DNA from: Merismopedia glauca CCAP 1448/3
GTDB taxonomy: Bacteria; Cyanobacteriota; Cyanobacteriia; Cyanobacteriales; CCAP-1448
Length of the DNA stretch: 39,038 nucleotides
Assembly (NCBI RefSeq): GCF_003003775.1
Contig: NZ_PVWJ01000041.1
Span: 1-39,038, forward strand
Reading direction: 5' to 3'
Made by a program: the position numbers and the translations under genes
Part shown: positions 2,341 through 13,835 of the stretch, piece after piece
Position numbering within the stretch: position 1 is the first letter of the stretch
Layout of the letters: every line of letters begins with the position of its first letter
Notes under the pieces: model-generated
Told to the model about the DNA's origin: nothing
The model's database searches: none
What the model saw: the letters and a program-made list of their open reading frames with translations, nothing else

Positions 2341-2487
2341 CTCTGATAGTGATATGTCCCACCAGCCTAGCTGGAGCTTTTTCCCTCAAAATCCGAAGCC
2401 ATAGCACATCAAGTGAGTTTAATTAGATCTGGTAACTGCCAACCAGTTTAAATTAAGTATACAACCTGGCATTTTTGATGATTGGCG

Positions 2488-2533
2488 ATCGCTCTTTTTG
2501 ACTTGACCTCAAAAGGGGCGATTTATTTTATTT
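2488..2533 (+). terminator. Possible terminator after the EF-G-like gene
   Basis: An imperfect hairpin (left arm about 2488-2498, right arm 2511-2522, around 10 pairs) is followed by the T-rich run ttattttattt. It lies about 150 bases past the stop. The rest of the 352-base gap 2341-2692 is AT-rich and presumably carries the promoter of the next gene, but I see no clear -35/-10 pair. Confidence 0.4.
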
Positions 2534-2692
2534 GCTCTAAACTAATTAGGTATCTAAAATACTCATCACGTTAATTAACCTGACTCTTAGGGTACTCTAT
2601 GTAAGTGATCTTTACATTGAAGGCTCTCTCGTCTTCCGTTTAAACTATAACTACTTATATCGTGTTCAAGTCTAATTAATAACTATATTGCA

Positions 2693-4423
2693 ATGCGACC
2701 TCAAGTGATTCTGACGATTATTTCGGGTGAACTTCAAGGTAAGCAACTAATTTTTGATGAAACCACCAGTTATACAATTGGTCGCGCCAAAAACTGCAAT
2801 CTTTGCTTCCCAGATAATGATTTACACAATGGCATATCCCGCTATCATTGCTTATTAGAAATAGATCCTCCTCACGTTTATATACGAGATCTAGGTAGTA
2901 CAAATGGCACTATTGTTAATAATGAGTTATTAGGTCAAGGTGATTTTGAAGGAAATCCATTGTCTGACTCTCCAATTAATCATACAAACCACCAACTAAA
3001 ATCGGGTGATGAAATTAATATAGGAGATACAATCATCAAGGTAGAAATAGAATTACCAAAAGTAGAATCTACGCTTCAACTTTCTCCAGAATCTTCAAAG
3101 TCGAAAATACCTTCACTCAAAGCTTTGGCCATTAAAGGCATTAGTTGGTCTATTTTGGGTTACGGATTCACTCAGTTGCTTAGATTTGGTTCTAACATAG
3201 TTTTAACCCGTTTACTAACACCAAGTCTCTTTGGTCTAATGGGTTTAGTGAACATTATTTATCTTGGTTTAAACCTGTTCTCAGATTTTGGGATTAGGCA
3301 AAATATCATTCAAAATCCTAGAGGGCAAGAGCCTACTTTTCTTAATACAGCTTGGACTGTGCAAGTAATTAGAGGTATATGTTTATGGCTCCTTTGTCTA
3401 ATTGTAGCTGTTCCTGCTGCTAGTTTTTATAACGAACCTAAACTTGTGTGGTTAATTCCCGTAGTCGGTTTTAGTGCTGTTATCGCTGGTTTTAATTCTA
3501 CTTCCCTGGCACTAATGAATCGCAAATTAGCTATGGGGAAACTTACTCTCTTAGAAATTTTAGTCTACATAGTACAAGTCACGGTTATGATTGTATGGGC
3601 TAAAATTTCTCCAACTATTTGGTCTTTAGTGATTGGAGGGTTAGTATCAACTAGTATTAAAATGCTCGTTAGCCATTTTCTCATCCCTAATCAAAGAAAT
3701 AAATTTGCTTGGGACAAAACAGTTTTAAAGCAAATGTTTCGTTTTGGAACGGGGATTTTCTTATCAACCTTGATTGGATTTATGGCTACTCAAGCTGATA
3801 AAATTATTCTAGGAAAACTTTTTTCCGTGGAAATTCTGGGGGTTTATATCGTTGCTTTTACATTAGCTGATATACCCAGGCAAATTATTAGTAGAATTAG
3901 TAATTTTGTGATATTCCCTTTAATTTCCAAACAAGCAGATTTACCTCGCAACATTTTGCAAGCCAAAATTTTAAAACCACGTAGAATTTTCTTGATGGTG
4001 TCAGCGTTATCATTATCATTAGTCGTTGGATTTGGAGATTTATTTGTCTTGTTTGCTTACGATCGTAGATATCATGAAGCTGCTTGGATGGTCAGAATAC
4101 TATCTTTAGGATTATGGCATACTCTTTTATATAGAACTAGTGGTGCCACTTTAATAGCTTTAGGTAACAGCTACTATTATGCTATGGGCAGCTTTTTTAG
4201 CATGATTCTTATCACTCTGGGTTTACCAATATCACTTCATTTTCAAGGATTGTTAGGGGGAGTTATTTTAATATCTTTTGCAGATTTACCACAATATTTC
4301 ATCATAAACTACGGACTTTATAAGGAACGTTTAACTTATTTGTCGCAAGATGGTATCTACACAATTTTGTACTTAGCCTTATTATCTTTAACACTAGTTC
4401 TGAGAAATATATTTTTAAGTTAA
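2693..4423 (+). CDS. FHA domain fused to Wzx-type polysaccharide flippase
   Basis: This 576-residue protein is a fusion. Residues 1-118 form a forkhead-associated domain with the phosphothreonine-binding signature: G30-R31, S49-R50-Y51-H52 and S69-T70-N71-G72-T73. A polar linker (about 119-142) follows. Residues 143-576 are a polytopic membrane protein of the oligosaccharide flippase (MATE/MurJ-like, Wzx) family, with the typical start SLKALAIKGISWSILGYG and about 12 hydrophobic segments. The flippase part should move lipid-linked repeat units across the inner membrane. The FHA part should lie in the cytoplasm and could dock to a phosphorylated partner. The frame is continuous through the junction, so this is not two genes. 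There is no clear Shine-Dalgarno site before the ATG. It is the first gene of a forward run; the polymerase gene follows after 25 bases. Confidence 0.88.
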   Translation: MRPQVILTIISGELQGKQLIFDETTSYTIGRAKNCNLCFPDNDLHNGISRYHCLLEIDPPHVYIRDLGSTNGTIVNNELLGQGDFEGNPLSDSPINHTNHQLKSGDEINIGDTIIKVEIELPKVESTLQLSPESSKSKIPSLKALAIKGISWSILGYGFTQLLRFGSNIVLTRLLTPSLFGLMGLVNIIYLGLNLFSDFGIRQNIIQNPRGQEPTFLNTAWTVQVIRGICLWLLCLIVAVPAASFYNEPKLVWLIPVVGFSAVIAGFNSTSLALMNRKLAMGKLTLLEILVYIVQVTVMIVWAKISPTIWSLVIGGLVSTSIKMLVSHFLIPNQRNKFAWDKTVLKQMFRFGTGIFLSTLIGFMATQADKIILGKLFSVEILGVYIVAFTLADIPRQIISRISNFVIFPLISKQADLPRNILQAKILKPRRIFLMVSALSLSLVVGFGDLFVLFAYDRRYHEAAWMVRILSLGLWHTLLYRTSGATLIALGNSYYYAMGSFFSMILITLGLPISLHFQGLLGGVILISFADLPQYFIINYGLYKERLTYLSQDGIYTILYLALLSLTLVLRNIFLS

Positions 4424-4448
4424 ACTATCGTCTATTAAATTTGACCAA

Positions 4449-5783
4449 ATGAGTGTACTAACTTACTTAGCGATGTTTGGTTGGATTCCAGCTATTATAT
4501 ATCTTTTTCAAAGATACCAACCCCAAAAAGCGGTTATTATAGCCTTTATTGCTGCTTGGTTATTTTTACCAAAAGCAAGTTTTCCAGTTATAGGACTTCC
4601 AGACTACACTAAAATTTCTGCTACTTGTTACGGTATAGTTTTAGCAACTTTAGCCTTTGATATTCAGCGGTTTAAAAAAATTAGATTTAGCTGGATAGAT
4701 ATACCACTAATAGTTTTTTCCTTACAACCGTTTATATCATCAATTACTAATGATTTGGGTCCTTATGATGGTATATCTAGCAGCCTAGCTCAAATTGTTC
4801 GTTGGGGTATCCCTTATTTATTAGGTCGAATTTATTTCGACAGCCTTGATGGTTTAAAGAAGCTCGCAGTTGCTATATTCATTGGTGGTTTAATGTACAC
4901 CCCTTTATGCCTAATAGAAATACGTTTAAGTCCCATCTTACACCGTACAATCTATGGCTTTGAAGGAACAGGTAGAAGCTTTGTACAAGCAATCCGTTTA
5001 GGGGGTTATCGACCGTCAGTATTTATGGAGCATGGCTTAGCAGTTGGCATGTGGATGATGGCAGCTAGTGTAATTGGGATTTCGTTATGGAAAACTGGTG
5101 TGATTAAACAGCTTTGGAATATTGATATTAAGTTGTTCCTTATATGTTTGGTCGCTACATTTATCCTAGTTAAATCAACAGGTGCTTATCTTTTGTTTGT
5201 CCTCGGGTTATGTATTTTATTTTCTGCTTGGTATTGGCGCAATAAACTATTATTAATTATTTTTAGTTTGGCTATATGCTACTATTTATTTTTAGGTGCT
5301 AGTGGCAATATTACAACTGCAAGAATCGAGCAAATAGTAAGTTTTACTACTAGTCTAGTTGGTGAAGATAGAGCGCAATCACTAGAATTTAGATTGAGTA
5401 ACGAACAAATTTTAGGAGATAGAGCTAGAGAAAGGCCACTGACAGGCTGGGGTGGATGGGGCAGAAATCAGGTTTATGATGAGGCTACAGGTAAGCAATT
5501 AACTACCACAGATAGCTTATGGATCATCGCTTTTGGTACTGGAGGGATAATTGGATTAGTTAGTTTAACGGCTTTTATGCTGTTGCCAAGTTTAATGTTT
5601 TGTCTTCGTTGTTATCCTCCTGTCTCCTGGTCACATCCCAAAGTTGCTCCTGCGGCTACACTGGCAATTATCATGGTTTTATATATGTTTGACTGCATAT
5701 CAAACGCGATGATAAATCCTATTTTCACCCTTGCATCTGGAGGTATATCTGGTGTGGTTGTTAAACATATCAAAGATTATTAA
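4449..5783 (+). CDS. Wzy-like O-antigen/EPS polymerase
   Basis: This 444-residue hydrophobic protein has about ten membrane segments and a large soluble loop roughly at residues 285-355. It matches the O-antigen ligase/polymerase (Wzy, WaaL) pattern: low sequence conservation, a long periplasmic loop rich in charged residues, and a GWGGWGRN motif near the end of that loop. Its place just after a flippase and before an acyltransferase and glycosyltransferase favours Wzy polymerase over WaaL ligase. It would join repeat units on the periplasmic face of the inner membrane. Family assignment rests on topology and context more than on catalytic motifs. Confidence 0.75.
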   Translation: MSVLTYLAMFGWIPAIIYLFQRYQPQKAVIIAFIAAWLFLPKASFPVIGLPDYTKISATCYGIVLATLAFDIQRFKKIRFSWIDIPLIVFSLQPFISSITNDLGPYDGISSSLAQIVRWGIPYLLGRIYFDSLDGLKKLAVAIFIGGLMYTPLCLIEIRLSPILHRTIYGFEGTGRSFVQAIRLGGYRPSVFMEHGLAVGMWMMAASVIGISLWKTGVIKQLWNIDIKLFLICLVATFILVKSTGAYLLFVLGLCILFSAWYWRNKLLLIIFSLAICYYLFLGASGNITTARIEQIVSFTTSLVGEDRAQSLEFRLSNEQILGDRARERPLTGWGGWGRNQVYDEATGKQLTTTDSLWIIAFGTGGIIGLVSLTAFMLLPSLMFCLRCYPPVSWSHPKVAPAATLAIIMVLYMFDCISNAMINPIFTLASGGISGVVVKHIKDY

Positions 5784-5826
5784 CAATCGCTTTAAATAAA
5801 TTAAATATTTACCTCAGCATTAATTT

Positions 5827-6366
5827 ATGGAAACTGAAACTCACCAAATAACTATAGAATCCACTATTTCGGCTACCGAACCTGATTGGAGTCGGGAACA
5901 GCTAGAAAATTGGTGGCAACCAAGTCGGCAATTATTAAAAGCTATCCGAAAATATCAAAAATGGCACAATTCAGAGGGGATTTTAGCCAAGTTATTAAAA
6001 CGTGCATATGTCATTCCCTATCGTTTCTGGAGTATTGTCTCAGGCGCAGATATTCCTCTAAATTGCCAAATTGCTGGGGGGTTAAAATTAACTCATCCGA
6101 ATGGAGTAGTGATCCATCCAAAAGCTTCAATTGGACCAAATTGTTTAATTCTTCAGCAAGTTACAATTGTTGCAGGGGTGAATATAGGAGGACATGTAGA
6201 TTTAGGAGCAGGTGCGAAAATAATTCGTCCAGTAACTATTGGCGATCATGCTAAGGTAGGGGCTAATGCTGTGGTTCTATGTGATGTTCCATCTGGAGCA
6301 ACTGCTGTAGGAATACCAGCCAAAATTATTATCAAAAATTATGGAACTAGCGATTATAATACTTAA
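5827..6366 (+). CDS. Hexapeptide-repeat acyltransferase (CysE/WcaB-like)
   Basis: This 179-residue protein has a helical N-terminal part (about 1-80) and a left-handed beta-helix from about 85 to 172 built of hexapeptide turns (for example VVIHPKASIGPNCL, VNIGGHVDLGAGAKI, VTIGDHAKVGANAVV). It ends with the usual AVGIPAKII. This is the serine acetyltransferase-like group often found in exopolysaccharide clusters, where members acetylate a sugar using acetyl-CoA. True serine acetyltransferases are usually longer and sit in cysteine loci, so a sugar substrate is more likely here. The next gene starts inside its last 26 bases, which indicates translational coupling. Confidence 0.82.
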   Translation: METETHQITIESTISATEPDWSREQLENWWQPSRQLLKAIRKYQKWHNSEGILAKLLKRAYVIPYRFWSIVSGADIPLNCQIAGGLKLTHPNGVVIHPKASIGPNCLILQQVTIVAGVNIGGHVDLGAGAKIIRPVTIGDHAKVGANAVVLCDVPSGATAVGIPAKIIIKNYGTSDYNT

Positions 6367-7312
6367 TTATAAAACTCCAGATTTAGTAGTAGATTGCTTA
6401 TTTTCTCTTCAAGACCAGGAGGAAGTTAAACAAGGACGATTAATTGTCGTTGTAGTTGATAATTATTCTGGGGATGATTCAATTGAAAAAATCCAAAAGG
6501 CTATTGCTCAAAATAGCTGGGAAGAGTGGGTAAAACTGGTAGCTTCTCCGGTAAATTGTGGGTTTTCGGCAGGTAATAATGTAGGGATTAAAACTGTTAA
6601 TGCAGACGCATATCTACTATTAAATAGTGACACTATAGTTAGACCAAATACAGTTAGTGCTTTTCTTAATTGTCTATCAACACATCCAGAAGCTGGGTTA
6701 ATTAGTCCGAGGTTAGAATGGCCAGATGGAGAACCTCAGATTAGTTGTTTTCGCTATCCGACACCTGCCAGTGAAGCGATCGCCTCGGCTCGTACTAGTG
6801 TGGTCACGCAACTGTTAAAAAAATATAATGTACCAATTCCTGTATTTGATACTCCTCAAGAAGTAGAATGGACCAGTTTTGCTTGCGTGTTGATCCGCCA
6901 AAAAGTAATTGAGCAAATTGGCTATTTAGATGAAGGTTACTTCATGTATTTTGAGGATATTGACTATTGCAGGCGCGCGCAAGCTGCCGGATGGAAGATA
7001 CTACACTGTCCTGATGCTAGAGTTGTACATCTTAGGGGGGGTAGTGGTTCTGTTAAATCAGATTTAGCTACCCGCAAGCGTCCCAGAGCTTATCTCTACG
7101 CCTCTAGAGCTAGGTATTTCACTAAATTCTACGGTCAAGCCGGCTTATGGACGGCTAATCTTTTATGGATGGCTGGAAGAGCAATTTCTCTAGGACGGGA
7201 ATTAATTGGTAACAAGGAACCCCATATATGCGATCGCCAGTCTCAAGATATTTGGATTAACTTTTTACAGCCTTTAAAAGAACCAACATTACCGACAACT
7301 AAAAATTCATGA
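6341..7312 (+). CDS. GT2 family glycosyltransferase (rhamnosyltransferase-like)
   Basis: This 323-residue cytoplasmic enzyme begins with the GT-A signature IIILNYKTPDLVVDCLFSL. It has a nucleotide-binding NCGFSAGNN stretch, a DxD-like LLNSDTIV, and the acceptor-side motif FMYFEDIDYCRRAQAAGW. This is the WbbL/RfbF type of GT2, which often transfers rhamnose. It should add one sugar to the growing lipid-linked repeat unit. dTDP-rhamnose genes lie 4 kb downstream, which fits but does not prove the donor. It overlaps the upstream acyltransferase by 26 bases and the sulfotransferase by 4 bases (ATGA), so the three are likely one transcript. Confidence 0.85.
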   Translation: MELAIIILNYKTPDLVVDCLFSLQDQEEVKQGRLIVVVVDNYSGDDSIEKIQKAIAQNSWEEWVKLVASPVNCGFSAGNNVGIKTVNADAYLLLNSDTIVRPNTVSAFLNCLSTHPEAGLISPRLEWPDGEPQISCFRYPTPASEAIASARTSVVTQLLKKYNVPIPVFDTPQEVEWTSFACVLIRQKVIEQIGYLDEGYFMYFEDIDYCRRAQAAGWKILHCPDARVVHLRGGSGSVKSDLATRKRPRAYLYASRARYFTKFYGQAGLWTANLLWMAGRAISLGRELIGNKEPHICDRQSQDIWINFLQPLKEPTLPTTKNS

Positions 7313-8175
7313 GTAAGCTTCCTGACTTCATCATCATCGGTGCTATGAAGTCCGCTACCAGCACCCTCCACGAACAATTAGCCGCACAACCTGGCATCTT
7401 TATGAGTTCTCCAAAAGAGCCAAATTTCTTTAGTGACGAACCTCAGTATGCTAAAGGGATGTCATGGTACACTTCACTCTTTAAAGATGCTGCTGTAGGC
7501 GATCTTTGTGGGGAATCTAGCACTCACTACACTAAACTCCCAACCTATCCGAAAACGGTGACACGGATCTGGGAACACATACCAGATGTGAAAATGATCT
7601 ATGTGATGCGTCATCCTATAGATCGCTTAGTCTCTCAATACATTCACCAATGGACTCAACGGGAAACCTCAATAGATATCAATCAAGCTATTCAGCAACA
7701 TCCCGAATTAATCGCTTACAGCCAATATTCTCAGCAACTAGAACCATATTTTGCCACTTTTGGTCAGGGAAAGATCTTGCCTGTATTTTTTGAAAGACTA
7801 TTACACGAATCCCAAGAAGAATTAACTAGAGTTTGTCAGTTTATTGGATATGAAGGAAAAGCGGTTTGGAATTGGGAACTAGATGCTCAAAACGTCTCTA
7901 GTCAGAGGATGCAAAAAAATTCATGGCGAGATTTTTTAGTCGAATTTCCCGTTTTAAAAACAGTCAGGAAAAATCTCATTCCTCAAAGCTGGCGCGATCG
8001 CATCAAAAGTCTCTGGATGATGAAACAAAAACCACAGATTAATCCCGAGCAAATGACCTATTTAAAAGCGTTATTTGACAAAGATTTGGAAATTGTAGGT
8101 TCGTGGCTAGGGACAGAACTAGATTGCGATCGCTACAAACAAATCGTGCGATCGCGCTCTCTTAACTGGTATTAA
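7309..8175 (+). CDS. PAPS-dependent carbohydrate sulfotransferase
   Basis: This 288-residue protein has the 5'-phosphosulfate-binding loop IIIGAMKSATSTL (residues 8-20, K14) and the 3'-phosphate-binding segment MIYVMRHPIDRLVSQY (R101, S109). Both are hallmarks of the sulfotransferase superfamily, in the group of heparan-sulfate-type carbohydrate enzymes. SPKEPNFFSDE (residues 34-44) is also typical. It would move sulfate from PAPS to a sugar hydroxyl or amino group. Its start overlaps the stop of the GT2 gene (ATGA), so it is coupled to the polysaccharide operon. This makes a sulfated polymer likely. The exact acceptor cannot be read from the sequence. Confidence 0.88.
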   Translation: MSKLPDFIIIGAMKSATSTLHEQLAAQPGIFMSSPKEPNFFSDEPQYAKGMSWYTSLFKDAAVGDLCGESSTHYTKLPTYPKTVTRIWEHIPDVKMIYVMRHPIDRLVSQYIHQWTQRETSIDINQAIQQHPELIAYSQYSQQLEPYFATFGQGKILPVFFERLLHESQEELTRVCQFIGYEGKAVWNWELDAQNVSSQRMQKNSWRDFLVEFPVLKTVRKNLIPQSWRDRIKSLWMMKQKPQINPEQMTYLKALFDKDLEIVGSWLGTELDCDRYKQIVRSRSLNWY

Positions 8176-8339: not shown

Positions 8340-10658
8340 CTAACTTTTAAATTCAGGTTTTTCACCAATTCGATCCTCAACCAGTGGTTCTTCAGAAGCT
8401 ATTTCCAGTGAAGTTTCTTCTGGCAAATTAGGGTCGTTGTCTCTGATTGGCGTTCTACTGCTTGCCATTTTATTAACTACGATTCCCCAGAGTGGAAACT
8501 TATAGGAATTAATTTGGTCAACCACATCTACAACTACTGAACGGTGACTCTTCATCAGTGACACTACCAAAATTGCACCATCGACATGAGCAGATAGTAA
8601 ATTAGCATCTGGATGACTTGAAATGTCTGAAGAATCATAGATGACTAAATCAAAAGTGCTTTGCAGTTCTTTGACACAAGACTGCATATAAGTAGATTCT
8701 AGTAATCTACTTGAAGTTGGTGAAACTTTACCAGAAGTCAACACAAATAGATTATCCACCTGTGGGGATTGACCTGCTGGTAAAGGCGATCGCTGGATGG
8801 GATCTTTAGGAGCTAACCTGTTAGAAAGAATATCCGTCAGTCCGCGATCGTTTGGCAAATTCAATAACTCGTGCAAGTAAGGTAGCTGTAAATTTGCATC
8901 GACTAATAAAACTCGTTGACCGGCTGCTGCTGCCGCTTGTGCTAGATATAAAGCTACAGTTGATTTACCATCCCGTGCTTCTGCCGAACAGACCAACAAA
9001 GAGCGTAAAGGACGCTCTGGATAAAGAAATTTGAGCTTGGCATGGAGTAAGTCAAAACTTTGGACAAACTCTTTATTAACATAAGAGTTGTAGTTACTCG
9101 AATCAACTGGCTCTTTTAACACATTAGAGGTTGCCAAGTTGCGTAAATCGGGTCTGAACGGAATTTCACCTAATATTGGTAGTTTGGTTAGATCTTTAAT
9201 ATCTTCTGCGGTATAAAACTTGTTCCGATATCTTTCTATAGCCAACGCTGCCGCCAATCCTAGCAATAATCCCCCTCCAAAACCCACGAATAGTTTCTTT
9301 TTCGGGTCTATATCGTTAGGTATAGCATTGCCTTCACCATCTCTAGGTATTAATGGCGGAGAAACTAACTCCCAAGGAAATTGATTTTGAGCCGCTTGAA
9401 CTCTTAAAGTTTCTCGCTGGCTTAATAACTGATTCAGAATTTGAGTAGCACGCTCTAGTTCTACTTGTAGATCGCTGTATTGACGAGCTATAGCCGGAAA
9501 TTCTTGCGCTTGTAACTCCAAATTAGCTCTAGTTTGAGCTAGAACTTGGTTGCGGACTTCAAGAATTTGAATTTGATCGGCTGTATCCAGCAGTCTAGCA
9601 GTCAATCCCTGACGCAAATTGCTTTCGGGTTGCTGAACCCCATCTGACTGGGTTTGACTACCAACAACCTTTTGCTTTTGCTGATTGAGTAAAGATACTA
9701 ATTGATTTCTTTTAGATTCTAAATCTTGGATTTGAGGACTAGTGGGGAGGAACCTCGTCGATTCCACGGCAATTTGACTTTCTATCTGTTTAATTTGCGT
9801 AAATAAAGTTTGATATGTAGTATCTTGGGTCAAATTAGTGGCTGCGATCGCTTCTTGGGGAGTTAATTGTAGTTTCTTCTGTAAACTAGCATAAGTTGTT
9901 CTCAACTCTCGTAACTCTCTTTGTACATCTTGCTGTTGACTTGTAGCCGCACGAGCCTGGGTAAACAGTTCCTCTCCCCTGGTTCTAGGATCGGTTAGCT
10001 GGTATTTTTGTTGTAGCTTTTGCAGTTCTGCCTGGATCGTATCAACTCGCTTTCTCAAGTCTGGAATTTGCTCATCAATAAACTTAACCGCCTCTCCAAT
10101 TCTTGTCTTGCGTTGGTTGAGACTATACTCCAAAAATTTTTCTGAAGTCGTTTGGATCACAAAATCCGCTACTTCTGGATTTGTATCTTGGTAACTAACT
10201 TGAATAATCTTGGTTTGATCTAGTTTAGTTTTTCCAGATACCCGCTCTACCACCAAACCATATCTCAGTCTACCGAAGCCAAATGTGGGATATCTAGTTT
10301 TGACTTTTTCCACTATTTCTTTAAGTAGATCGTACCCTTGCAATATTCTTAATTGGGTGGCATAGTCTAGACCAACACTCTGGCTGCTGTCTCTAGCTCC
10401 ACCAGCTATAGTTGTCGGATCTGTAGCTCTGTCTTCTTTGGTTAGGGGTTCGACCAGTATTTGAAAGCCACCTTGGTACACTAATGGGTCGCGGGTTGCC
10501 CAAAACCAAGCTCCTAAAGTAGATAGACCAGTGATGCCTGCAATCAGTAAAGCGTGTCTTTGGAGCAGTCGGAGCCAGGGGCGAATGCTGAGTCCCTTTG
10601 GAGAAGACGATTTAAGATCGTCTTGTTGCTCTAATTGCCAGTCTTTTGCTGATTCCAT
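8340..10658 (-). CDS. Wzc-like polysaccharide co-polymerase with degenerate BY-kinase domain
   Basis: This 772-residue protein has a short cytoplasmic start, a membrane segment near residues 35-52, a Wzz-type periplasmic domain with long coiled coils (about 170-420), a proline-rich segment before a second membrane segment (about 455-470), and a C-terminal P-loop domain (about 535-730). It should control chain length and link the polymerase to export. Walker A is AEARDGKST (K565), so nucleotide binding seems possible. Walker A' reads LLVDANLQLP (D587, N589), where BY-kinases have DxD followed by R. Walker B reads VIYDSSD (D675), where DTPP or DSPP is usual. The C-terminal tail (about 730-772) has no tyrosine, so the usual autophosphorylated cluster is absent. 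It converges on the sulfotransferase gene and is divergent from rfbC. Confidence 0.87.
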   Translation of the reverse strand: MESAKDWQLEQQDDLKSSSPKGLSIRPWLRLLQRHALLIAGITGLSTLGAWFWATRDPLVYQGGFQILVEPLTKEDRATDPTTIAGGARDSSQSVGLDYATQLRILQGYDLLKEIVEKVKTRYPTFGFGRLRYGLVVERVSGKTKLDQTKIIQVSYQDTNPEVADFVIQTTSEKFLEYSLNQRKTRIGEAVKFIDEQIPDLRKRVDTIQAELQKLQQKYQLTDPRTRGEELFTQARAATSQQQDVQRELRELRTTYASLQKKLQLTPQEAIAATNLTQDTTYQTLFTQIKQIESQIAVESTRFLPTSPQIQDLESKRNQLVSLLNQQKQKVVGSQTQSDGVQQPESNLRQGLTARLLDTADQIQILEVRNQVLAQTRANLELQAQEFPAIARQYSDLQVELERATQILNQLLSQRETLRVQAAQNQFPWELVSPPLIPRDGEGNAIPNDIDPKKKLFVGFGGGLLLGLAAALAIERYRNKFYTAEDIKDLTKLPILGEIPFRPDLRNLATSNVLKEPVDSSNYNSYVNKEFVQSFDLLHAKLKFLYPERPLRSLLVCSAEARDGKSTVALYLAQAAAAAGQRVLLVDANLQLPYLHELLNLPNDRGLTDILSNRLAPKDPIQRSPLPAGQSPQVDNLFVLTSGKVSPTSSRLLESTYMQSCVKELQSTFDLVIYDSSDISSHPDANLLSAHVDGAILVVSLMKSHRSVVVDVVDQINSYKFPLWGIVVNKMASSRTPIRDNDPNLPEETSLEIASEEPLVEDRIGEKPEFKS

Positions 10659-11240: not shown

Positions 11241-11786
11241 ATGAAAATTATCCCGACCAAGATTCCTGATGTGTGGATTATAGAACCGCGAGTATTTGCT
11301 GATAATCGCGGATTTTTTTATGAAAGCTATAATCATAGAGAATTTACCCAAAAAATAGCTCCGGATATTCAATTTGTCCAGGATAATCACTCTCGTTCTG
11401 GAAACGGTGTCTTACGGGGACTCCACTACCAGATTCAGCAACCCCAAGGGAAATTAGTCAGAGTCATAACTGGAAGTGTGTTTGATGTTGCGGTTGACTT
11501 GAGAAAAAGTTCTCCAAATTTTGGCGACTGGGTGGGGGTAGAGTTAACGGCTGAGAATAAACAGCAGTTGTGGATTCCTCCTGGGTTTGCTCATGGCTTT
11601 CTAGTGACTTCACCAGTGGTAGAAGTATTGTACAAAGCGACCGATTATTATGCTCCTGAGCATGAAAGATGCATTCTTTGGAACGATCCAGATATTGGGA
11701 TTGATTGGTCGGGAATTGGCGAGCCAATTCTCTCTGCTAAAGACCAATCTGGTCAATTTTTACGGGAAGCAGAGGTATTTTCGTGA
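11241..11786 (+). CDS. rfbC: dTDP-4-dehydrorhamnose 3,5-epimerase
   Basis: This 181-residue cupin enzyme converts dTDP-4-keto-6-deoxyglucose to dTDP-4-keto-rhamnose. Family signatures are clear: EPRVFADNRGFFYESY near the start, the catalytic histidine in VLRGLHYQ (H62), and the substrate-binding run WIPPGFAHGF. The length is normal for RfbC/RmlC. Its stop overlaps the GTG start of rfbD by four bases, so the two are translationally coupled. It opens the forward rhamnose block. Confidence 0.96.
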   Translation: MKIIPTKIPDVWIIEPRVFADNRGFFYESYNHREFTQKIAPDIQFVQDNHSRSGNGVLRGLHYQIQQPQGKLVRVITGSVFDVAVDLRKSSPNFGDWVGVELTAENKQQLWIPPGFAHGFLVTSPVVEVLYKATDYYAPEHERCILWNDPDIGIDWSGIGEPILSAKDQSGQFLREAEVFS

Positions 11787-12685
11787 ATCGTATTTTGCTA
11801 ATCGGATCTGATGGACAATTAGGACAAGAACTCCAAGAAACTTTAAAGAGGGTAGAACTATTCCCAGTCAACCGTCAACAATTAGATTTGAGCGAACCAA
11901 AGAAGATTAGAGAACTAGTTGAGGAAGTCCAACCACAGATTATTATCAACGCAGCAGCTTATACGGCTGTAGACAAAGCGGAAACTGAACCGGATCTAGC
12001 TACTTCAGTTAATGGAACCGCTCCCACCATCATGGCACAGGTAGCCCAAGAGCAAAATGCATTTCTCATCCATGTTTCGACCGATTATGTATTTGATGGG
12101 ACGAAAAGTACTCCTTACGTTGAATTAGACTCCACAAATCCACTCAATGTTTACGGTCATTCCAAGTTGATGGGAGAACAAGGAATTCAAGCTCACACAG
12201 ATCGATACATTTTACTGAGAACTGCTTGGGTTTATGGAGAATTTGGGAAAGCTAATTTTGTCAAAACTATGTTGAGGTTATTTGGAGATAAAGAGGAGGT
12301 AAAAGTAGTCGCCGATCAAGCTGGAACTCCTACTTGGACTGGGGATATTGCTGAGGTAATAGCTAAGTTGAGCGATCGCATTGCCGAAAATTTGGGTGAT
12401 GCAGCCAGATTACAGTCTCTTGCAGGCATTTACCACTATACCAATAGTGGCATTGCTAGTTGGTATGACTTGGCAGTAGCTATATATGAGGAAGCTGAAG
12501 CTTTAGGCTTACCGATGAAGTTACAACGCCTGGTTCCCATATCAACCCCAGAATACCCAACCCTAGCTCAACGTCCAGCATATTCAGTCTTATCTAGTCA
12601 AAAAGTATCTTCCTTACTTTCTGGTTATCCACCCCAGTGGAGACAGTCTTTGAGAAAAATGCTCGTAGGGTATATAAGTAATTAA
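11783..12685 (+). CDS. rfbD: dTDP-4-dehydrorhamnose reductase
   Basis: This 300-residue short-chain dehydrogenase reduces dTDP-4-keto-rhamnose to dTDP-rhamnose using NAD(P)H. The N-terminal Rossmann motif is GSDGQLG (8-14). The catalytic pair is Y124 and K128 in YGHSK, preceded by VSTDYVFDG (98-106), a family hallmark. The start is GTG, in the GTGA overlap with the rfbC stop; that overlap and the immediate MNRILLIG beginning fix the start. Length is normal. Confidence 0.96.
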   Translation: MNRILLIGSDGQLGQELQETLKRVELFPVNRQQLDLSEPKKIRELVEEVQPQIIINAAAYTAVDKAETEPDLATSVNGTAPTIMAQVAQEQNAFLIHVSTDYVFDGTKSTPYVELDSTNPLNVYGHSKLMGEQGIQAHTDRYILLRTAWVYGEFGKANFVKTMLRLFGDKEEVKVVADQAGTPTWTGDIAEVIAKLSDRIAENLGDAARLQSLAGIYHYTNSGIASWYDLAVAIYEEAEALGLPMKLQRLVPISTPEYPTLAQRPAYSVLSSQKVSSLLSGYPPQWRQSLRKMLVGYISN

Positions 12686-12761
12686 GGAAGAAGGAAGAAG
12701 GAAATAAAGTAGTTATTAGACGGGTGGAAACAGTTAATTCAGTTATTTTCAGGACTCTATT

Positions 12762-13835
12762 ATGAAAGCACTGATTCTTTCCGGTGGTAAGGGTACGAGA
12801 TTACGACCTCTAACTTATACAGGTGCGAAACAGTTAGTTCCCGTCGCGAATAAACCGATTCTCTGGTATGGGATAGAAGCAATTGTCGCTGCTGGAATTA
12901 CCAATATTGGGATTATTATTAGTCCAGAAACTGGAGGTGAAATTCAAAGCCAAACTGGAAATGGCGATCGCTTTGGTGCCAAAATCACCTATATTTTACA
13001 ATCAGAGCCAGCCGGTTTAGCTCATGCTGTCAAAATCGCTCAGCCTTTTTTACAAGATTCTCCTTTTTTGATGTACTTAGGAGATAATTTAATCGAAAGC
13101 CAACTGCACGATTTATTGGCAAAATTTCTGCAAAAAGATTTAGATGCTTTGATTTTATTGCGTAAAGTTGATAATCCTAGTAGTTTTGGGGTAGCTACAG
13201 TAGACGCACAAGGTAAAGTTTTACAGCTAGTCGAAAAACCCAAAAATCCCGCATCTAATTTGGCGTTAGTGGGAGTTTATCTATTTTCTACAGCTATACA
13301 TCATGCAATTAGTAATATTCAACCTTCTGCTAGAGGAGAATTAGAAATTACTGATGCAATTCAGTTCTTGCTGAATAACCAAAAAATGGTAGAAGCACAT
13401 CAGCTTGAAGGTTGGTGGTTAGATACTGGGAAAAAAGACGATTTGCTTGCAGCCAATCACATTATTTTAGACTCTCAGTTAGAAACTGATGTAAAAGGCG
13501 AAATAGATGCCAATTCTCAAATTATTGGTCGAGTCCAAATCGGTACTAATTCCCAAATTATTAACTCAACTATCCGAGGACCTGCCATTATTGGTGAAAA
13601 TTGCTATCTGGAAAACTGCTTTATCGGTCCTTATAGTAGTATTGGCGATCGCGTCACTTTGATCGAAGCAGATTTGGAACATAGTGTGATCTTGAAAAAC
13701 TCCAAAATAGTCAAGATCCAGCAAAGAATAGTAGATAGTGTGATTGGACAACGGGTTCAGCTTACCCTAGCTGAACGACGACCAAAAGCACTCAGATTTA
13801 TGCTTGGGGATGACTCACAAATTGAATTGATATAG
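12762..13835 (+). CDS. rfbA: Glucose-1-phosphate thymidylyltransferase, long form
   Basis: This 357-residue enzyme makes dTDP-glucose from dTTP and glucose-1-phosphate, the first step toward dTDP-rhamnose. The nucleotidyltransferase signature LSGGKGTRLRPLT is at residues 6-18, with EKP and WLDTGKKDDL further on. From about residue 245 the protein carries a left-handed beta-helix (NSQIIGRVQIGTNSQI and similar). This makes it the long form (StrD-like), not the 290-residue E. coli RmlA. It follows rfbD after 76 bases that include an aggaaga purine repeat. No rfbB (4,6-dehydratase) is in the window, so that step must be encoded elsewhere. Confidence 0.9.
   Translation: MKALILSGGKGTRLRPLTYTGAKQLVPVANKPILWYGIEAIVAAGITNIGIIISPETGGEIQSQTGNGDRFGAKITYILQSEPAGLAHAVKIAQPFLQDSPFLMYLGDNLIESQLHDLLAKFLQKDLDALILLRKVDNPSSFGVATVDAQGKVLQLVEKPKNPASNLALVGVYLFSTAIHHAISNIQPSARGELEITDAIQFLLNNQKMVEAHQLEGWWLDTGKKDDLLAANHIILDSQLETDVKGEIDANSQIIGRVQIGTNSQIINSTIRGPAIIGENCYLENCFIGPYSSIGDRVTLIEADLEHSVILKNSKIVKIQQRIVDSVIGQRVQLTLAERRPKALRFMLGDDSQIELI

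Follow-up and report, generated by a model that had tools for sequence, protein, structure and literature searches.

Organization of the gene cluster and domains of the fusion protein

The window (the whole stretch of DNA analysed, 39,038 nucleotides in length) contains a single open frame of 576 codons, which starts with ATG at 2693, has no internal stop in its translation, and encodes an FHA domain followed by a Wzx-type flippase. Genes of polysaccharide synthesis lie next to it, the features being as follows.

2487..2523, plus strand: terminator-like hairpin, only a consensus match, in the gap that separates the EF-G-like gene from the fusion gene
2693..4423, plus strand: FHA-Wzx fusion gene, 576 aa in one frame
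2693..3052, plus strand: FHA domain, residues 1-120 (Pfam core 27-111), assigned by profile, residues and family placement
3053..3106, plus strand: linker, residues 121-138, with low predicted order at 121-131 and one threonine (T127)
3107..3109, plus strand: ATA codon (Ile139), the start-codon column in 12 of 18 aligned unfused orthologues
3107..4420, plus strand: Wzx/MOP flippase, residues 139-576, 44-53% identical to 18 unfused cyanobacterial orthologues
4449..5783, plus strand: Wzy-like polymerase (Wzy_C / O-antigen ligase), 25 bases past the fusion gene
5827..6366, plus strand: hexapeptide-repeat acyltransferase-like gene of the same cluster
6341..7312, plus strand: family 2 glycosyltransferase of the same cluster
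7309..8175, plus strand: sulfotransferase of the same cluster
8340..10658, minus strand: Wzc-like chain-length / BY-kinase-type protein
11241..13835, plus strand: rmlC, rmlD, rmlA (dTDP-rhamnose supply)

Beyond rmlC, rmlD and rmlA, genes for a WecG-type transferase and another family 2 glycosyltransferase were found. Judging from its genes, this is a Wzx/Wzy cluster for a probably sulfated, rhamnose-containing polymer. The G+C content of window positions 2500-6000 is 33-37%, versus 45-48% in the EF-G-like gene directly upstream, which would fit a different origin of the polysaccharide cluster.

The preliminary description of this DNA had proposed a continuous 576-codon frame uniting an FHA domain with a Wzx-type flippase, and Pfam analysis bore this out: the frame is uninterrupted, and its parts match the respective families at E=5.2e-17 and E=4.6e-50. 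The FHA match (PF00498; 62.5 bits, cut-off 20.7) covers residues 27-111 and profile positions 1-67 of 67, that is, a significant, full-length match within residues 1-118, the part that had been called an FHA domain. In the flippase part, Polysacc_synt_3 (PF13440) was matched at residues 170-462 (E=4.6e-50) and, overlapping with it, Polysacc_synt (PF01943) at residues 147-413 (E=4.5e-27); the top NCBIfam family was the MOP flippase model PRK10459 (residues 141-559, E=1.2e-38, under the model cut-off). No kinase, pseudokinase-like, ABC ATPase or ABC-2 domain was found in the fusion protein by Pfam. The domain limits suggested earlier proved about right, with the last FHA strand reaching to approximately residue 120, the linker occupying residues 121-138, and the flippase starting from 139.

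Residues G30, R31, S49, R50, H52, T70, N71, G72, and T73 are all present in the FHA part, and the subset named in the preliminary description (G30-R31, S49-R50-H52, N71-G72-T73) stands at exactly the positions assigned to it. The phosphothreonine (pThr)-contact motifs GR (G30 R31), SxxH (S49..H52), and NG (N71 G72) are kept, the motif being as given for FHA domains in a passage of PMC1262709; the roles of pThr-contact residues in Rad53 and Rv1747 are treated in parts of PMC5549992. The nearest solved chains by sequence were FHA domains as well, with CHFR at the top (E=7.1e-4). The motif ETTS at residues 23-26, which we take to resemble that of GarA/OdhI, lies inside the FHA domain; it is not a separate tail and was set aside.

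A full-length AlphaFold model built from 48 sequences had a mean pLDDT of 81.4. The flippase was well modelled, with ten-residue block means of 80-98 from residue 151; the first helix comprises residues 142-174, and residues 121-131 have pLDDT below 50. The top Foldseek match was WzxE (9g9n, E=1.2e-7, TM 0.77 by target length), MATE and MurJ chains ranking below it, and the flippase part is predicted to have the MOP fold. The FHA part was of low confidence, with some strands only, both in this model and in a single-sequence fold of the FHA domain alone (pLDDT 45.5, uninformative); it was poorly modelled because the alignment contained no FHA relatives, and the FHA assignment is therefore based on profiles and residues.

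Distribution of the fusion and structure of the join

The preliminary description did not regard this fusion as a standard architecture. In the genomes and loci examined, no second FHA-flippase fusion came to light: neither among the near relatives, nor in the draws of the order and the class, nor in 79 named loci. The fusion protein was searched against 60 near relatives, 388 genomes of the order, 388 genomes class-wide, and 36 genomes of another order; the first three sets include the source genome, the sets overlap, and the last one probably repeats genomes of the class draw and adds no new genome. Matches were obtained in 47 of the 60 relatives (E<=0.001), 223 of the 388 genomes of the order (E<=1e-20), and 94 of the 388 genomes of the class (E<=1e-60), the own genome being included in each count; the matches in 31 of the 36 genomes of the other order agree, none being a fusion. 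Only one other genome of the same family was among the matches listed, its flippase match being distant (23%).

In the order and class draws, where the best three first-look candidates per genome were scored, no listed match besides the own gene spanned both parts. Of the 144 flippase matches listed for the order (E<=8.8e-96, own gene excluded; some few are incomplete or close to the end of a contig), none starts before query residue 105 or lies in a frame longer than 522 codons, and the listed matches of the class start at query residue 119 or later. Frame length was considered too, because a single fusion might show up as two rows if its linker is long. Nine frames were fetched, eight of at least 505 codons from the class (G595, G392, G584, G673, G396, G563, G553, and G437) and one from the order (G340); by eye, none of them carries an FHA domain in the residues preceding the flippase, at most 106 in each.

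The scan of named relatives covered the best 80 of 561 confirmed relatives, corresponding to 79 loci, with records of the source organism possibly omitted. Early query starts among the matches listed were those of L127 (residue 65), L106 (74), and L171 (81). According to a flippase profile, only one of 81 strong frames among the 79 loci listed exceeds 77 residues ahead of the flippase (L105, 106 residues). Pfam found no FHA domain in the seven longest flippase frames of these loci, and a self-built FHA profile gave no match of the fused-FHA subfamily in the 79 loci; this profile is narrow, recovering no more than six frames from the FHA set of the own genome at E<=1. Among the 117 loci with strong flippase frames, the window gene occurs twice and one genome appears under two names. 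Viral contigs yielded one pattern match and no relative of the fusion protein. A search of titles and abstracts in the open-licence PMC literature found no paper on an FHA-flippase fusion.

The flippase part resembles unfused cyanobacterial Wzx/MOP flippases (Polysacc_synt_3) in sequence (44-53% identity to the 18 orthologues) and in its predicted WzxE fold, but differs from all those examined, to none of which an FHA domain was found fused. A homologue of the window Wzy is present in 36 of the 79 named loci of unfused orthologues, some of which are shortened by contig ends, and in 14 of the 79 the Wzy match starts at most 213 bases past the end of the flippase frame. The fused gene thus occupies the position that a flippase ordinarily has. 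Five flippase-like loci were recognized by Pfam in the own genome.

To analyze the structure of the join, the window protein was aligned with the 18 unfused orthologues, whose starts were assigned in this analysis. Twelve of them start exactly at the column of Ile139 (eleven with ATG, one with GTG). From residue 101 on, the first in-frame ATG, GTG or TTG of the fusion gene is a TTG at residue 145 (3125). By eye, no Shine-Dalgarno run is evident before the ATG at 2693 or in the 20 bases before this TTG. Two products might nevertheless be made, the flippase being translated also, or only, from an internal start (TTG 3125 or another codon), and a flippase starting at this TTG would be only about six N-terminal residues shorter than its relatives. 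However, the relatives' start codon is ATA here, no stop separates the two parts, and the bases before the TTG lack an evident Shine-Dalgarno-like run, so that we consider internal initiation very improbable.

The G+C content at the third codon position is 0.25 in the FHA part, 0.27 in the flippase part, 0.27 in the Wzy gene, and 0.43 in the upstream EF-G-like gene. No second copy of the fused FHA or of the flippase was found in the source assembly, and no second match to the fusion protein in the own genome at E<=0.001. These data bear on the possibility that two separate genes were joined within the contig as an assembly artefact, which might be suspected in a draft genome of 254 contigs, the fusion being found in one assembly only. 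Yet the join is in frame with an open linker, the third-position composition is alike in both parts and in the next gene, and the join lies 3.1 kb inside the contig. Since an in-frame, composition-matched join that has lost the old start is combined with the absence of a second copy from the assembly, a chimera is not expected, and we give this explanation hardly any credence. The fusion is real and, among the genomes examined, confined to one.

Origin of the FHA domain

The best matches of the fused FHA domain among the relatives are FHA-kinase proteins. It is 43% identical to the FHA domain of P0002, encoded in another genome of the same family, and the alignment shows that it has the GR, SRYHCLL, and PP motifs in common with the FHA-kinase family, as well as a long loop preceding the last strands. 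In a tree of 32 FHA domains, rooted at the midpoint and containing several long branches, the fused domain groups with 15 rows of the FHA-kinase family with moderate support (85/67), on a branch of its own outside the other 15 rows of this 16-row group; none of the 16 other FHA rows of the own genome belongs to the group. Taken together, the fused domain looks like a diverged member of the FHA-Ser/Thr-kinase family with its binding residues kept. FHA-containing STYKs of cyanobacteria were described in 2005 (a passage of PMC1262709). The kinases of the P0002 type have the same FHA subfamily and the same GR, SxxH, and NG residues; the partner domain is a kinase in them and a flippase in the fusion.

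Near-full-length FHA-kinases with at least 47% identity to P0002 were counted in 12 of 100 genomes, from the matches listed. Only the first 39 codons of such a gene are left in the own genome (C54:4269-4385, or about 2270-2386 on the minus strand of C54:2000-8000); they are intact, after which similarity stops. With 56% identity to P0002 and 46% to the fused FHA, the remnant is closer to the former, and excision of the fused domain from the remnant kinase gene is not supported. A 589-codon kinase frame occurs farther along the same contig. In another genome, an FHA frame of 132 codons that belongs to the FHA-kinase family lies near a contig end (G003:C86, L233:3010-3405); it is possibly part of a kinase gene truncated there, the best kinase piece being found from base 1 of C101.

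This history can be read in a different way, namely that the fusion is a chance, lineage-specific event and its FHA domain a tolerated passenger with little or no effect on export. The single occurrence is consistent with this, as are the relatives' flippases, which stand alone in comparable clusters; moreover, the FHA-kinase of the family is mostly lost from this genome, so that the old signalling partner may be gone. On the other hand, the binding residues are kept despite only 43% identity to the P0002 domain, which suggests continued selection: in a passenger that has diverged so far they should have decayed, provided that the fusion is not recent. We consider a passenger role unlikely, though a serious alternative to the control by Ser/Thr kinases discussed below.

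Possible control of polysaccharide export by Ser/Thr kinases

The own genome contains 53 Pkinase matches (52 of them over the cut-off), 17 FHA matches (the fusion included), and 5 PP2C_2 matches; the window's contig has no Pkinase or PP2C_2 match. Threonine phosphorylation and its reversal are thus available in this organism. Besides the fusion, its FHA proteins include one with two FHA domains, an ABC ATPase and ABC-2, an Rv1747-like architecture (L175:1103-3514, minus strand, C6), one with a PrsW intramembrane protease domain (L173:1821-3470), one with PAS-GGDEF-EAL (L183:1887-4454), and one with a kinase; FHA domains on membrane and signalling proteins are therefore common in the own genome.

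In MOP flippases the N-termini are cytoplasmic. Wzx proteins move the building blocks of sugar chains outward across the membrane, while FHA domains normally recognize phosphate groups, in particular on threonine, that protein kinases have attached. The reading that we favour, with moderate confidence, is that of a Wzx-type flippase of lipid-linked oligosaccharides with an FHA domain gained in its lineage, most likely docked to pThr, whose export activity would be under Ser/Thr kinase control. A Wzx flippase of a Wzx/Wzy pathway would have acquired an N-terminal FHA domain in the source lineage, and this domain, by analogy with the N-termini of MOP flippases, would be placed in the cytoplasm, facing the kinases. 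It would most likely dock the flippase onto a threonine-phosphorylated partner, candidates being an autophosphorylated kinase, a phosphorylated protein of the cluster (e.g., the Wzc-like one), or T127 in its own linker. Docking would bring the flippase to the sites of synthesis or keep it away from them, and export could thereby be switched on, switched off or positioned by Ser/Thr kinases, the effect being undone by PP2C phosphatases. Here we infer pThr binding as such, the partner, and the direction of control. Kinase-gated or kinase-recruited polysaccharide export, as proposed in the preliminary description, is a plausible hypothesis and reasonable in its outline. Several points speak against it: the fusion occurs in one genome only, conservation of a fused state being the usual sign of function; the support for the FHA placement is moderate (85/67); kinase and phosphatase matches are absent from the window's contig; the FHA models are poor; and the ATG at 2693 has no evident Shine-Dalgarno run. 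The single occurrence limits our confidence.

The FHA domain might also act as a scaffold which holds together a complex of the flippase with Wzy, the Wzc-like protein or itself, with no phosphate-dependent switching. FHA domains are protein-interaction modules, and possible partners are encoded nearby; however, the canonical pThr-contact residues are present, which a phosphate-independent scaffold does not need, and we regard this explanation as improbable. Returning to control through pThr, its more specific version, in which the flippase has its own pThr reader and Ser/Thr kinases directly gate or place the export of lipid-linked sugars apart from the BY-kinase (Wzc) cycle, is put forward only tentatively, as one possibility.

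The combination of an FHA domain with Wzx is a new one; the kind of control is already known. MviN is a MOP flippase. According to a passage of PMC12599244, the tail of mycobacterial MviN, when phosphorylated by PknB, recruits FhaA, which results in inhibition of peptidoglycan synthesis. The likeness consists in a MurJ/MviN-type membrane protein placed under Ser/Thr kinase control via FHA, and the difference in that MviN bears the phosphorylated pseudokinase tail and the FHA domain is separate, whereas in the fusion the flippase itself bears the reader. Rv1747, described in parts of PMC5549992 as an FHA-bearing ABC exporter tied to Ser/Thr kinase signalling, likewise has FHA on a membrane exporter, but exporters of this type are ABC transporters with two FHA domains, and the fusion has one FHA domain on a MOP flippase. 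Fusions of FHA to VanZ-1 lipocone domains, reported in a part of PMC12419801, similarly place a cytoplasmic FHA domain on a membrane protein of envelope-polysaccharide metabolism, although VanZ is not a flippase.

If the proposed control is true, the fusion would be a mirror image of mycobacterial MviN-FhaA, and FHA-based control of MOP flippases, known in trans for MviN, would have arisen again in another form. The many Ser/Thr kinases of cyanobacteria would also be connected directly, and in a testable way, with one defined step of export, and laboratory work would gain a module for making further flippases responsive to kinases. To our knowledge, the timing of the export of sheath, capsule or released polysaccharide in cyanobacteria is little understood.

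The preliminary description had also paired the fusion with the nearby Wzc-like protein, whose tyrosine tail is missing. The observation itself holds, there being no tyrosine in the last 40 residues of the window protein; its significance is weak, a missing tail being usual beside unfused flippases. Among the 79 loci with unfused flippases, 20 Wzc-like frames were listed, of which 17 near-full-length homologues were counted, two distant frames (24-25% identity) and one of 456 aa being left out. Tyrosine is absent from the last 40 residues in nine of the 17 and occurs there no more than twice in 15, while the remaining two have 3 and 4; the three uncounted frames have 3, 3, and 6. The idea of FHA as a substitute for the missing Wzc tyrosine tail is weakened by these counts: tail-less homologues are common in clusters with no fusion, and there is therefore no sign of FHA standing in for the tail. 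BY-kinase activity or its control in Wzc-like proteins of such cyanobacterial clusters may differ from that of Wzc.
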